From a virus: a stretch of 50,317 bases of DNA. Position 1 is the stretch's first letter. The number at the start of each line of letters is the position of its first letter. The notes under the pieces were generated by a model that had not been told where the DNA came from, did no database searches, and saw only the letters and a list, made by a program, of their open reading frames with translations. Positions 7,927-12,375 of the stretch are shown one piece after another. The position numbers and the translations under genes were made by a program. The stretch is from IMG/VR virus record IMGVR_UViG_3300022744_000040, positions 1 to 50,317 of that record; one strand, written 5' to 3'.

Positions 7927-8354
7927 TACTGATTCTGCTTGAGCATCTTCAATAGCTCAGCTGTGGTACCAACAAACATATTGTTGGTCACTTTGTTTGG
8001 ACCGGCCGCTTGACCATCGACTGGCTTATCCAAGTCCTTCTTGCGCTTAGACAGATCCATTAGATCCTTGCTTGCATCGACTGTCGTCTTAACAAGTGCA
8101 GCTGCAACCTCATATGCACGCGGATGTTGACTCATCCCTGCAACTTCCAAGATACCGTTCAGAGCTTCTTGGCCCTTCTCAATTGCCGCAATCATATTAC
8201 CGCGTGCATACTCGAAGTCATCATCAATCTGATTGTTCGACGACAAGACGACAGTCGCTGGTGGCAGGATGTCTCTGCCAGTGATTACTTCGGCTGGGAG
8301 TGGAGAAAGATTTAGCGAATCGCCAATCTTATCCTTTGGTTGTGATGTATCCAT
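7926..8354 (-). CDS. 16: Terminase small subunit gp16
   Basis: A 142-aa protein (T4 gp16 is 164 aa) that assembles as a ring, recognises viral DNA and regulates gp17. The central helical stretch (ARGNMIAAIEKGQEALNGI, then HPRAYEVAAALVKTTVD, then SKDLMDLSKRKKDLD) is the characteristic T4-type gp16 coiled-coil core. The gene starts 26 bases inside the end of gene 15 and its stop overlaps the gene 17 start. Confidence 0.92.
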   Translation of the reverse strand: MDTSQPKDKIGDSLNLSPLPAEVITGRDILPPATVVLSSNNQIDDDFEYARGNMIAAIEKGQEALNGILEVAGMSQHPRAYEVAAALVKTTVDASKDLMDLSKRKKDLDKPVDGQAAGPNKVTNNMFVGTTAELLKMLKQNQ

Positions 8355-9150
8355 AATTAGAGTTTGCAGGTACTAAGTTTCGATCAATAGCAATTGAAGC
8401 ATTGCTTGTAGGATTTCCATTAGCGTCTAGACCTGGACTAATAGAAATTCTGTCTGGTGGATTCGCTAGGCCAACAGCGGATTCAACTGTTTCATAACCA
8501 GAAGCATCGAAGAAGTTGGTGTTTGCTAGCGTAATTACATTCGAAGACTTGACTGGGCCATAGAAGTAAACTTTCATCAAGAAGTCTAGTGTCCATGTAA
8601 TTGCTCTGCGATCTTCAAACCCACCCTCATATGTATCTGACGGTGTAACGTTGATTAGCGTCAATGGAATGTCGACGACATAGTTCATTTCCGGAATCAG
8701 ATTGACGGTCGTCGTTCTTTCTGGCGTAAAGTATGGTAAGATTTGTTCGAGGATCTGCGCGCCATCATCCTGATACTTCGATACAATGTGCAACGAGAAT
8801 GAAATGTCATATGGCACTGGATTGTAGTTATACTTCATCGAAGAAGGATTGTCTGGATCGACTCTTCTGTTTCTTCCAGCTGTTACCAACTTACGTGTCG
8901 GTGAATATGACATCGTTGTGATCTCAAACCCCATTCTTGGCACAGCAGTAGCTACTGGCAAATCTAGGTCCGGATTGGCAACCAAGCGAGCTTGAGCCTT
9001 TTCTTTTGGTCCATACGACAGCGGAACCTTGATTGTATTAATTACGCCGCCGGCTGTATCCACTCTATTGACGTATATGTCGTTGAAGAGAGTGCCAAAT
9101 AGCGTAACGTATTTACGGAGCGTGCCGTGGTAAAATGTATCTGCAAACAT
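8329..9150 (-). CDS. 15: Tail completion and sheath stabiliser gp15
   Basis: A 273-aa protein (T4 gp15 is 272 aa) that caps the tail tube and sheath and joins the tail to the neck. The N-terminus (FYHGTLRKYVTLFGTLFNDI) matches the T4 pattern. It continues with IKVPLSYGPKEKAQARL, AVPRMGFEITTMSYSPTRKL and a middle segment typical of the family. Its ATG overlaps the stop of the upstream homing endonuclease (TAATG), so the endonuclease insertion left the gene intact and coupled. Confidence 0.94.
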   Translation of the reverse strand: MFADTFYHGTLRKYVTLFGTLFNDIYVNRVDTAGGVINTIKVPLSYGPKEKAQARLVANPDLDLPVATAVPRMGFEITTMSYSPTRKLVTAGRNRRVDPDNPSSMKYNYNPVPYDISFSLHIVSKYQDDGAQILEQILPYFTPERTTTVNLIPEMNYVVDIPLTLINVTPSDTYEGGFEDRRAITWTLDFLMKVYFYGPVKSSNVITLANTNFFDASGYETVESAVGLANPPDRISISPGLDANGNPTSNASIAIDRNLVPANSNYGYITTKG

Positions 9151-9851
9151 TAGACGACCTTATACCCTGAAGCAATCAAGCTATTGAATTTTTCTGTTCC
9201 TGGGACTGCCATCTTTCTTGTTGCTCCGTTTGTTAAATGTCGAATACCTTTTTTAGCATCAGATATCTTTTGCCTATTTATAGGATCATTCATAGCATTA
9301 TTTTTAGACATCAGCTGCTTCGTATCGTCAGAATGCTTTTTTCCGCGCATACCAACCTTGCCCTCTGCTTGCAGCCGCTTGCTATTAGCAGCAATCTTTG
9401 CTCGCGTCTCTGCTGATCGGGTACAGTTCTTTGGCTTGCCTTTCCATAACTCCGACAGCATTTGTTTATGCTCGTCCGTGCAAGGTTTAGCCCACGTGTT
9501 TTTGCGACCAGTGTTTGCTTTGGATATCTTCTCGCCGACCGTCAGTCGCTTCTGTAGGTCGGCAGTCCAATGCCCGTTGGTGTATTTTGTTAGGTTGTAG
9601 TATTTGGTACCTATATCACCATCATCAATGAGACCAAGCCACTTGCCTTCCTCAACAAGAAGGTCGGCTCTCGATGAATATACTCGAGATATTGTGCGCC
9701 GTCTGAAATCATCTGGACGGCGCTTGTACGACTGCCTCATCCAACGCGAACTGCAGATGTAACCATCATCTTCAGTACCCCAATGACATCCCAGATAAAA
9801 TCTCTGGTGCTTTTTATCGAACCAGATATACACGAACCCATACTTTTCCAT
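9150..9851 (-). CDS. GIY-YIG homing endonuclease (between genes 14 and 15)
   Basis: A 233-aa free-standing homing endonuclease. The N-terminal GIY-YIG-like domain shows FVYIW and FYLG (residues 6-23), a downstream basic segment (SSRWMRQSYKRRPDDF) and the candidate metal-binding Glu in LLVEEGKWLG. The C-terminal half carries NUMOD3-like DNA-binding repeats (GRKNTWAKPCTDEHKQMLSE, GMRGKKHSDDTKQLM) and a basic tail. Such Seg-type enzymes cut related phage genomes and spread by copying themselves in. It has its own ribosome binding site (AAAAGGAGCG) and a variant late promoter. Flanking neck genes are uninterrupted, so it is not intron-borne. Confidence 0.88.
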   Translation of the reverse strand: MEKYGFVYIWFDKKHQRFYLGCHWGTEDDGYICSSRWMRQSYKRRPDDFRRRTISRVYSSRADLLVEEGKWLGLIDDGDIGTKYYNLTKYTNGHWTADLQKRLTVGEKISKANTGRKNTWAKPCTDEHKQMLSELWKGKPKNCTRSAETRAKIAANSKRLQAEGKVGMRGKKHSDDTKQLMSKNNAMNDPINRQKISDAKKGIRHLTNGATRKMAVPGTEKFNSLIASGYKVV

Positions 9852-9884: not shown

Positions 9885-10607
9885 CTAGTATACGCCCTCA
9901 CTGAAAGGGTCGATCTCGGTAAAGTTGAGGAAGTCGGCAGCTTCTGTTTGGATAGCATCATTATCAGCAGAAGGAACTGCATTGTTGATGTCCCACGAAT
10001 CGAGCAGTAGCGTGTACCCAGATTCGTCAATTAATTCAACGCCAGTTTCTGTATGGATCGATTCGTCATTCATCGAAGGCGATACCTTATTCATCGCTAG
10101 ATCGATCTGCGGAATGCCAGTATTAAAGCGCTCACCGCTGAATTCAAACATCTCGCACTTAACGTCATAGAAAGCAACAGTACCTAGTTGTAGGAATACT
10201 GGATACTTTTCGACATATGTAATCTTGAACATACGTTGAGATGGTACGAACCAAATCAAGTCGCCTTCACGTGGGCGCTCAAGATTGAACACTTGTCCTG
10301 CCTCATTTTGGAAGGCACGAATAGAAACGCTGAATGTGATTGTATCACGAACTTCTAAGTTAAACTTCGATAGGAACTGTCCATCACCACCGAACCCGTC
10401 GATGTTCTTGATGTACATCTCAAGCATCACGTTGTTGTTATACTCACGGATGTTGTCCTCACCATAGATTGTGTCCATCTGTGGATCGGAGAATGGCAGA
10501 TAATAAGTATCGTTGCCATAGATTTTTATCGATTCCATTACTAGATTAGTGAGCAGCTCTTGCTCACCACTAGCTTGGAAATTGTTAAAATAAAACGAAG
10601 TGGCCAT
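9885..10607 (-). CDS. 14: Neck protein gp14
   Basis: A 240-aa protein (T4 gp14 is 256 aa) that with gp13 forms the head-completion neck ring to which the tail docks. Typical features are the N-terminal ATSFYFNNF, a VMESIKIYGNDTYYLPFSD stretch, and GFGGDGQFLSKFNLEVRD followed by a beta-rich RPREGDLIW segment. The C-terminus is acidic. It overlaps the stop of the preceding endonuclease-like ORF by one base. Confidence 0.94.
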   Translation of the reverse strand: MATSFYFNNFQASGEQELLTNLVMESIKIYGNDTYYLPFSDPQMDTIYGEDNIREYNNNVMLEMYIKNIDGFGGDGQFLSKFNLEVRDTITFSVSIRAFQNEAGQVFNLERPREGDLIWFVPSQRMFKITYVEKYPVFLQLGTVAFYDVKCEMFEFSGERFNTGIPQIDLAMNKVSPSMNDESIHTETGVELIDESGYTLLLDSWDINNAVPSADNDAIQTEAADFLNFTEIDPFSEGVY

Positions 10608-11044
10608 TATGCTTTCGAGACCATGACGGTCCGTCCTTTTGATTGCACATGCTTATTGTGCTTGAGTGACAATCTCATGGAAGCAGTATTAAGTCCATGC
10701 TCTTTGGCAAACTTGTTTATACTCAAGGTGGTGTATTCTTTTGCGTCCATTACTATCTTATATGGGCCATCGCTTTTAGCTTTCGTTATCTCCTCACCCC
10801 AAGTGATATTTCGACCTTTGAGGGATTCTCTTAGAAAGCGCTTTTGTTCTTCGGACCCATTCCATTTCGTGATGAGGTGGCTTTTTTTACCTCGTTCGCG
10901 TAAAATAGGAATCATCAAAGGTGAGCAAAACCCTATCTTGGTTATCGTCTTTGTCGATTTCGCTTCACACACGCTTAGCTCGATCTCCCACATCATTGCA
11001 GGATCGATTGGTGCCAGGTTTAAATGCTCAGCAATGCAATCCAT
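10607..11044 (-). CDS. Endonuclease-derived DNA-binding ORF lacking a visible nuclease domain
   Basis: A 145-aa basic protein between neck genes 13 and 14. The middle (GSEEQKRFLRESLKGRNITW, about 63-82) looks like a NUMOD3 DNA-binding module. The C-terminal KIVMDAKEYTTLSINKFAKEHGLN stretch (about 95-118) looks like the NUMOD1/helix-turn-helix tail of phage homing endonucleases. I see no GIY-YIG, HNH or LAGLIDADG signature in the first 60 residues. It may be a remnant whose catalytic domain was lost, a divergent nuclease, or an endonuclease-derived regulator. The reading frame is open and fits the neighbours with one- to three-base spacing. Confidence 0.7.
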   Translation of the reverse strand: MDCIAEHLNLAPIDPAMMWEIELSVCEAKSTKTITKIGFCSPLMIPILRERGKKSHLITKWNGSEEQKRFLRESLKGRNITWGEEITKAKSDGPYKIVMDAKEYTTLSINKFAKEHGLNTASMRLSLKHNKHVQSKGRTVMVSKA

Positions 11045-11046
11045 AT

Positions 11047-11790
11047 TTATCCAATGAGATCCATGGCAGGAAGCGATAGGTTTGTCACCATTTCACGTTC
11101 CATCTCTTTTATTTCAGCATCTGCTTCGTCGTAGATCTGTTGGCCGTTGAATTGGATACCACCTGGCAATTGCATGCCTGTAAATTTCTTCAAGTTGGTG
11201 CCCCACTGCTTTTTAATTAGAGCAGTTGTGTAGTTTTGCAACCAGCGCTCGCCCCATGCATCTGTAAATTCTTCTGGATCGACGACTTGATATGCTTCCA
11301 CGAGCAAGTATTCACCGTCGCGCAGCGTATTCCAATCCATATCGACCCACAATTGGTTTCTTAGTCTATTGTATCGGATTGGTTGCTTACCAACGAGCAT
11401 CTCACTAATGACAGACAAATGCTGCATCGCCATGTAGTATGGAATCAGCGAAACCGATGTCAATGTATACAGATCGTTCAAAGCAATCTGATAGCGAATG
11501 TTGAAGAGATCGTCTGCACGAACGGCAGGATCGCCAATCGAAAAGATACTTACTGCGCCGATGATGTTGTCGGGCAATATAATGTATTTGTTTGCTCTAT
11601 CTTGAGCAGTTACTTGGTGTTTGTAGTAAATCTTTTCATTACCATCAAAATGGTAATCCCAGAAATAGCTCAACGCTTCATCGATACGATCTTCAACTTG
11701 ATCGTCATCTACGTTGATTTCAATTACTGGGAAGCCTAGTTTACGAAGGCAGTAATCTTTAAAGGATTGTCTTGAATTAGGCACGGCCAT
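11047..11790 (-). CDS. 13: Neck protein gp13
   Basis: A 247-aa protein (T4 gp13 is 309 aa) that forms the neck with gp14 and completes the filled head. Recognisable stretches are FKDYCLRKLGFPVIEINVDD, QVEDRIDEALSYFWDYHFDG, and MDWNTLRDGEYLLVEAYQ followed by AWGERWLQNYTTALIKKQWG. The first eight residues, MAVPNSRQ, are repeated exactly at the start of the upstream homing endonuclease. Its ribosome binding site (GGAG) lies within the 3' end of that endonuclease gene, which overlaps gene 13 by 14 bases. Confidence 0.94.
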   Translation of the reverse strand: MAVPNSRQSFKDYCLRKLGFPVIEINVDDDQVEDRIDEALSYFWDYHFDGNEKIYYKHQVTAQDRANKYIILPDNIIGAVSIFSIGDPAVRADDLFNIRYQIALNDLYTLTSVSLIPYYMAMQHLSVISEMLVGKQPIRYNRLRNQLWVDMDWNTLRDGEYLLVEAYQVVDPEEFTDAWGERWLQNYTTALIKKQWGTNLKKFTGMQLPGGIQFNGQQIYDEADAEIKEMEREMVTNLSLPAMDLIG

Positions 11791-12346
11791 TGCGGAGCTC
11801 CTTGTTTATTCTTCTAGTTTCCAACATTCTCTGAATGGCTGCTGGATCTTTCATTGGGTTGTTCGTGGTCATTGCGGCCGAGCGCTTAGCTGTGTGGTTC
11901 TTAGCAGCTTCTTTCATTTTGTTCTTAGCATCTTCGGAGTGATGCTTGCCGCGCCAGTTAGCAATCGCCTTAACATTATTACAATTAAATTCAGTGCGAG
12001 ATTTCCACGTTTCACTCATCTTGCGACGAGTGTCCTCTGTGTGGCCTAAACATAGAAAGTTGTTACCACCATTATGCTTGTTGTAGTATTTTGGATTGCG
12101 TGCGGCGTCGACTTCTACGAGCATCTGAACTTCAAGCGCATGCATGTCTTCTGTAAGGCCTTGCGAAACGATCTCGCGCGTAAAGTCGGTGGGGCGCTTC
12201 TTATACTCTTTCAGCATGTACTTACTAGAGCAGATATAACCATCGTCCACTGTACCTTTATGGACGCCAAGATACAGCATACCGGTTAGACTGTCGGTCC
12301 ACCGATATACGAATGCTTCTTGTTGTCTAGAATTAGGGACGGCCAT
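11777..12346 (-). CDS. GIY-YIG homing endonuclease with a gene-13-derived start
   Basis: A 189-aa homing endonuclease. The GIY-YIG-like motifs FVYRW and LYLG lie within residues 12-28, followed by the YICSSKYMLKEYKKRPTDF basic segment, a candidate catalytic Glu in ALEVQMLVEVD, and NUMOD3-like repeats (LGHTEDTRRKMSETW, GKHHSEDAKNKMKEA). Its first eight residues are identical to those of gp13, encoded by DNA that matches at 22 of 24 bases. The GIY-YIG part proper begins just after this borrowed segment. It has AGGAG upstream and its stop lies inside gene 13. Confidence 0.87.
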   Translation of the reverse strand: MAVPNSRQQEAFVYRWTDSLTGMLYLGVHKGTVDDGYICSSKYMLKEYKKRPTDFTREIVSQGLTEDMHALEVQMLVEVDAARNPKYYNKHNGGNNFLCLGHTEDTRRKMSETWKSRTEFNCNNVKAIANWRGKHHSEDAKNKMKEAAKNHTAKRSAAMTTNNPMKDPAAIQRMLETRRINKELRNGRA

Positions 12347-12367
12347 AATATCTCCTGAGGATGGAGG

Positions 12368-12375
12368 TATTTATG
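12368..12375 (-). promoter_or_regulatory. Variant late promoter (CATAAATA)
   Basis: Minus-strand CATAAATA lies 22 bases before the endonuclease start and upstream of its AGGAG ribosome binding site, at the junction between the fibre island and the neck genes. It could also drive gene 13 onwards. Confidence 0.5.

Follow-up and report, generated by a model that had tools for sequence, protein, structure and literature searches.

What is the open reading frame that separates gp13 from gp14 in a T4-like phage, and does it still serve a function? The original prediction described an endonuclease-derived ORF with DNA-binding modules and no recognised catalytic domain, which could be a decayed remnant or, judging from its open frame and tidy gene junctions, a protein with retained function. 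The stretch of DNA analysed here, referred to as the window, is the 50,317-base virus record IMGVR_UViG_3300022744_000040 (positions 1 to 50,317). T4-type neck genes are encoded on its minus strand, and the transcription order is HE1, gp13, the ORF in question (P0001), gp14, HE2 and gp15:

11777-12346, minus strand: HE1, matching PHROG 314 (homing endonucleases) and Pfam NUMOD3
11047..11790, minus strand: gp13 homologue, head-tail adaptor Ad2 (PHROG 211, 4.7e-42)
10607..11044, minus strand: P0001, homing endonuclease-derived ORF between gp13 and gp14, 145 codons plus stop, ATG start
10605..10609, minus strand: TAATG stop/start overlap of P0001 and gp14, one base common to both genes
9885..10607, minus strand: gp14 homologue, head closure Hc2 / T4 neck protein (Pfam PF11649, 4.9e-29; PHROG 460, 4e-54)
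9150-9851, minus strand: HE2, matching PHROG 314 (homing endonucleases) and Pfam NUMOD3
8329-9150, minus strand: gp15

The ORF at 10607-11044 is real, reading from its ATG through 145 amino acids on the minus strand without an internal stop, and only an AT separates the gp13 stop from the P0001 start (TAA-AT-ATG). Under a simple composition model, the chance of an open frame of this length is 8.5e-5 for one frame. An antisense frame (10560-11057, plus strand, 165 aa) is likewise open across all of P0001; it has no match in Pfam or PHROGs and is probably due to chance. The codon score of the whole of P0001 is no better in frame (-0.312) than in the antisense frame (-0.286), and codon preference in the N-terminal half gives no in-frame signal (-0.386 in frame, -0.526 to -0.159 in the other frames), unlike HE1 and HE2, which each score best in their own frame (-0.029 and -0.142, respectively). 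The openness of the P0001 frame is by itself modest evidence.

The origin of the ORF can be read from its C-terminal half, which contains two modules:

10757..10855, minus strand: NUMOD3-type repeat (SEEQKRFLRESLKGRNITWGEEITKAKSDGPYK), P0001 residues 64-96 (custom HMM, 27.0 bits; blastp to T4-like HNH ORFs and L088)
10610..10768, minus strand: I-HmuI-type NUMOD helix-turn-helix (HTH), P0001 residues 93-145 (custom HMM, 17.3 bits; AF2; 1u3e, Z 6.9)

Searches of the whole of P0001 against Pfam, PHROGs, NCBIfam and PDB sequences gave nothing above cut-off. At curated cut-offs, Pfam NUMOD3 (PF07460) does not match P0001, whereas it matches HE1 and HE2, and I-HmuI_NUMOD-like (PF22083) has no match in the window. 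The nearest library match was PHROG 2081 (HNH endonuclease; E 0.026-0.04, C-terminal pieces); matches to Pfam LBP_M (0.0094, under its cut-off) and phrog_2472 (0.071) were judged to be chance. The first lead was a similarity of residues 64-118 to T4-like homing-endonuclease ORFs (tblastn E 0.2, weak; hhalign probability 92%), in which Pfam finds NUMOD3 clearly and HNH only under cut-off. Searches with these T4-like relatives recruited two IMG/VR proteins, L088 and L096 (L-numbers denote loci and proteins gathered in our searches, including IMG/VR), which match P0001 across both modules, with 34% identity over 61 residues (E 1e-5, among 643 ORFs) and 28% over 75 residues (E 4e-5), respectively. 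Both have the same C-terminal order as P0001, a NUMOD3 repeat followed by an I-HmuI-type NUMOD HTH, and differ from it in carrying a GIY-YIG domain (by motif); others in the set, e.g. L075, have an HNH motif by eye.

With custom profiles, P0001 scored 27.0 bits for the NUMOD3 'GRKITWGDKIS' repeat, a value that is somewhat favoured because some profile members were retrieved by P0001 itself, and 17.3 bits for the I-HmuI-type HTH; in each case 0 of 20,000 shuffles reached the score. An AF2 model from the P0001 sequence alone was useless (mean pLDDT 34.7). With 15 aligned relatives, the pLDDT for residues 91-145 was 91-96 per block of ten, and the fold is predicted to consist of a hairpin, a helix-turn-helix and a second hairpin; F112 and G137 are invariant in the 16-sequence alignment of P0001 and its relatives. 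The top VIA-align match of this model was I-HmuI (1u3e; Z 6.9, 61 residues, 2.1 A), although Z values below 8 can reflect a common arrangement, followed by AcrVA3 (Z 5.9), a Paulinella DNA-binding protein (5.7) and the HTH-type DNA-binding domain of I-TevI (PDB 1i3j; 4.5), an intron-encoded GIY-YIG enzyme. Foldseek also puts I-HmuI first (1u3e, E 7.8e-3, with no match at E <= 0.001), and a BFVD fold search returned mostly endonucleases as top matches, none at E <= 0.001. Because relatives with the HTH went into the aligned model, its resemblance to I-HmuI is in part built in; a profile of the same alignment retrieves I-HmuI from PDB sequences at 2.3e-7. I-HmuI, an HNH intron endonuclease, thus has a C-terminal DNA-binding domain with a fold like that predicted for P0001, and differs in having an HNH catalytic domain and in its sequence (15% identity). 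In a leave-one-out comparison the P0001 HTH scored 22.6 bits; 14 of the 15 relatives reached 45-96 bits and the last one, L171, 21.4 bits. The HTH of P0001 is hence recognisable but strongly diverged.

Two other resemblances were discarded. SegE-like homing endonucleases are not relatives of P0001 by hhalign (probability 0.2%), and the string WNGSEEQK, common to P0001 and Vibrio phage 150E35-1 (tblastn E = 4), returned only the phage's own contigs when searched as an exact degenerate pattern, a likeness that may be a NUMOD-like resemblance and not homology. It is well supported that the C-terminal half of P0001 is homing-endonuclease DNA-binding machinery and that the ORF descends from a homing endonuclease. 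The original prediction of NUMOD-like modules was thereby upheld by custom profiles and an I-HmuI-type fold, yet no curated library reports them.

The N-terminal part gave a different picture:

10859..11044, minus strand: P0001 residues 1-62, without detectable relative or nuclease signature in profile and sequence searches

This segment has no match in Pfam or PHROGs, none among 50,697 phage records, no relative in viral contigs except the same phage's own two, and none in genome contigs; the whole of P0001 found nothing in plasmids and no relative in genome contigs. GIY-YIG, HNH, SegE-like and L029-like profiles did not rise above the 5% shuffle level, either for residues 1-62 or for any of the six frames of 10560-11110; the general GIY-YIG profile has limited sensitivity, as it also misses HE2 and the junction ORF of locus L032, and the HNH profile was used without an outside positive control. 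Even for HE1, HE2, L029 and L032, Pfam finds no GIY-YIG domain that passes its cut-off. For the profile and sequence searches run, the earlier statement that the first 60 residues carry no nuclease signature holds.

Several candidate origins of residues 1-62 were rejected. A decayed GIY-YIG tail ('AMMWEIELS', noticed by eye) was equalled by 1836 of 5000 shuffles with a tail profile, and the match to the whole GIY-YIG profile by 3516 of 5000. HE1, L029 and PA9 beat all 5000 shuffles with the whole profile; HE2 was equalled by 33 of 5000 and L032 by 3300 of 5000, and since these two controls fail, the profile is not sensitive for SegE-like enzymes. A duplicated gp13 tail (MDCIA compared with MDLIG) gave p = 0.298 by DNA alignment, and a comparison with the gp14 protein (p = 0.044, one of five protein comparisons) was disregarded.

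Could residues 1-62 nevertheless be a nuclease domain of an unrecognised kind, making P0001 an intact homing endonuclease? The order of an N-terminal domain followed by NUMODs is that of homing endonucleases, the frame is open, and AF2 predicts a helix at residues 15-28 with moderate pLDDT (75 over residues 11-20). A PD-(D/E)XK-like pattern (D14, E27-A28-K29) is also present; however, 4910 of 20000 shuffled versions of the segment contain it too, which is chance level. For residues 28-57 the pLDDT mostly falls under 50, phage records, genome contigs and viral contigs apart from the phage's own two hold no relative of residues 1-62, and 62 residues are short for a nuclease domain. We consider an intact enzyme improbable, and the new nuclease fold raised in the original prediction found no positive evidence in our searches.

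The start region of P0001 contains a further element:

11044..11051, minus strand: GATAAATA, box resembling a T4 late promoter, sharing bases with the gp13 stop and with the P0001 ATG (its A)

In the whole window, the coding strand has 14 copies of ATAAATA, which we read as a T4-type late promoter, where 4.1 are expected, and the other strand has a single one; 11 of the 14 boxes are found 7-49 nt ahead of an ORF start, those of HE1, HE2 and P0001 among them. One box, at 9282, falls within the end of HE2 and precedes gp15 by 132 nt. The Shine-Dalgarno energy of P0001 (-3.1) is near random (median -2.5), and that of gp14 (-2.7) is weak as well; the values for HE1 and HE2 are -7.4 and -9.0. Translation of P0001 would thus proceed through coupling to gp13, and that of gp14 through coupling to P0001. 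Such coupling of gp14 implies that the frame would stay open whether or not the protein acts.

In the region 11754-12375 (minus strand), HE1 has taken over the ancestral leader of gp13. The HE1 Shine-Dalgarno sequence, first codons (MAVPNSRQ) and preceding stretch match the gp13 leader of related loci L009 and L006, with the leader box reading CATAAATA before HE1 in the window and CCTAAATA in L009/L006; gp13 in the window now starts at a second copy of those codons, with a new Shine-Dalgarno sequence inside the 3' end of HE1.

The box on the start codon raises the alternative that residues 1-43 are normally untranslated, with a late promoter over the ATG turning them into a leader and a NUMOD-only product starting at Met44 (or Met17/18). 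The A of the ATG is the last base of the box, codon preference gives no in-frame signal for residues 1-60, and Met44 has a slightly better Shine-Dalgarno energy (-3.8) than Met1 (-3.1). These differences are small against the random background, though, the box may be no promoter, and read-through transcripts from gp13 would include Met1, so that we attach little probability to a shortened product.

To place P0001 among its relatives, we searched viral contigs with gp14, obtaining 29 loci whose gp13/gp14 junctions were classed by tblastn coordinates; the junction DNA itself was inspected for 16 of them. The junction is empty in 22 of the 29 loci (2-33 nt from the end of the gp13 match to the start of the gp14 match), although the loci do not represent 29 independent lineages, because several are copies of one phage. 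Two loci (L004, L005) are the same phage as the window, two (L008, L024) are unclassifiable, having gp14 without a preceding gp13 match, and three (L028, L029, L032) hold another ORF that is GIY-YIG-like by motif:

1872-2498 of L028 and L029: GIY-YIG-like ORF at the gp13/gp14 junction, with a Cys/His-rich end like that of the T6 HNH protein
1902-2492 of L032: second, different GIY-YIG-like ORF at the gp13/gp14 junction

Pfam gives no significant match for any of these junction ORFs; that of L032 aligns with HE2 over 110 residues at 55% identity. In the closest relatives, L006 and L007, gp13 is 93% and gp14 89% identical to the window, and in the compared stretch of L006, L007 and L009 there is no match to HE1, P0001 or HE2. 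The two further complete copies of P0001, in L001 and L002, do not differ from the window in DNA over the ~2.5 kb compared; a 74,655-base contig of the same phage holds no second copy, and ten related records no match. P0001 is therefore an insertion, at a junction that is empty in most relatives and holds other endonuclease ORFs in a few. Inserts were also seen within gp13 itself: in L023 (1496-2482; 328 aa compared with 247 in the window) an in-frame insert lies near residue 66-78, L032 (862-1848) has a similar one, also seen in sequence, and L026 and L027 carry one as judged by a split tblastn match; the inserts are rich in G, T and N.

These relatives bear on the view that P0001 is a DNA-binding-only regulator, whose HTH would repress late transcription of the neck genes, or of P0001 itself, by binding the 13/14 junction or the P0001 promoter. 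The predicted fold and the basic character of the DNA-binding half (net charge +8 over residues 63-145) speak for this view, the late-promoter-like box sits on the start codon, and PMC2988022 describes I-TevI as an autorepressor acting via its DNA-binding domain. Against this, the only copies of P0001 found are DNA-identical and give no sign of conservation, the 22 loci with an empty junction, closest relatives included, do without such an ORF, and its own start signal is weak. A regulatory role by analogy with I-TevI is hence unlikely, if a little less so than the other alternatives to decay, and the repressor of neck genes envisaged in the original prediction gained no positive evidence.

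The junction is occupied in other T4-like phages as well. T6 and ESh24 have an HNH endonuclease exactly between gp13 and gp14, and of 1044 matching phage records 45, which include duplicate entries of the same phage, contain the T6-type gene at >=95% identity; a neck, head-completion or head-tail adaptor gene lies beside or under the match in 39 of the 45. The T6/ESh24 enzyme resembles P0001 in insertion site and tidy junctions, and differs in having an HNH domain (PF13395, 2.8e-5), no significant match to P0001 and, as seen in sequence, a Cys/His-rich C-terminus where P0001 has NUMOD3 and HTH. In F1 and SHFML-26 the T6-type gene is broken, with gp13 and gp14 still annotated:

1201-2012 of L194 and 1411-2012 of L195: broken HNH gene regions
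1201-1662: HNH piece of the broken gene (only 1411-1662 annotated in SHFML-26)
1692-2012, F1 and SHFML-26: 106-aa C-terminal ORF free of catalytic domain, with its stop just before gp14 at 2014

What remains of the broken gene beside gp14 is, as with P0001, a C-terminal ORF lacking a catalytic domain. F1 and SHFML-26 indicate that such an open ORF with a tidy gp14 border can be a product of decay. Retained function therefore does not follow from an open frame and tidy junctions, as the intact T6 enzyme and the broken F1/SHFML-26 piece are equally tidy. The original prediction had also named what would speak for simple truncation, a full-length nuclease at the same locus in relatives of which P0001 is a drifting copy, and only the first half of this was seen. 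Other endonuclease ORFs do occupy the junction (L028, L029, L032 and the T6 group), but P0001 is not a truncated copy of L029, L032 or ESh24 (best blastp E 0.63, 6.5 and 6.7, respectively). Its full-length parent was not found among the junction enzymes compared, which have different C-termini; the P0001 modules resemble those of other homing endonucleases, e.g. L088 and L096. Our literature search found no paper on the 13/14 insertion site. PMC2988022, in the part available, reports 12 free-standing T4 endonucleases in intergenic regions, and the portion of its table therein lists none at 13/14.

Taken together, we consider it reasonably probable that P0001 is what remains of a homing endonuclease gene of the free-standing type, which had inserted between gp13 and gp14 in a T4-like phage. 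Of the features that define free-standing phage homing endonucleases, P0001 has the C-terminal NUMOD-type DNA-binding modules and the insertion between conserved genes with empty alleles in relatives (22/29), and lacks a catalytic domain recognisable by libraries or custom profiles, which agrees with the earlier description. After entry of the gene, the N-terminal catalytic domain may have been lost or replaced, and the remaining product may bind DNA without cutting, so that homing would have ended. Loss of catalysis is what we best infer; the searches run link residues 1-62 to no nuclease, so that a lost domain is presumed. The frame was perhaps kept open because gp14 starts on the P0001 stop without a good ribosome site of its own and translation of P0001 would feed gp14; alternatively, the loss may simply be recent. 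The preprint PMC13405050 states that homing endonuclease genes usually gather inactivating mutations after invasion, and this fits a remnant. An open frame and a recognisable HTH core would also be expected of a functional DNA-binding protein, which counts against decay.

A functional protein of this kind could have been domesticated, a homing-endonuclease DNA-binding protein free of catalysis turned to the phage's own purpose, either control of neck genes or a DNA-centred counter-defence like that of AcrVA3, with residues 1-62 as a new effector domain. We regard this as a slim prospect and keep it in play since AcrVA3, a protein of I-HmuI fold, is reported to cleave DNA and counter CRISPR-Cas12 (PMC13001698, which also states the likeness to I-HmuI). 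AcrVA3 (PDB 9kja, named 'HNH endonuclease' by its depositors) shares an I-HmuI-like DNA-binding fold with the P0001 model over 50 residues, and differs in its reported dsDNA cleavage and anti-CRISPR action and in sequence (8% identity).

P0001 is most likely of a known and largely ordinary kind, the leftover of a selfish DNA-cutting enzyme at a repeatedly invaded spot. As such a remnant, it would illustrate how the catalytic half can be shed while the C-terminal half stays open, abutting an essential gene, and it cautions that an open frame and tidy gene borders are no proof of function. For T4-like phages, P0001 adds weight to the view that various homing endonucleases insert repeatedly at the gp13/gp14 junction, with visitors of the HNH type in T6 and its kin and of two GIY-YIG-like types in relatives of the window phage.
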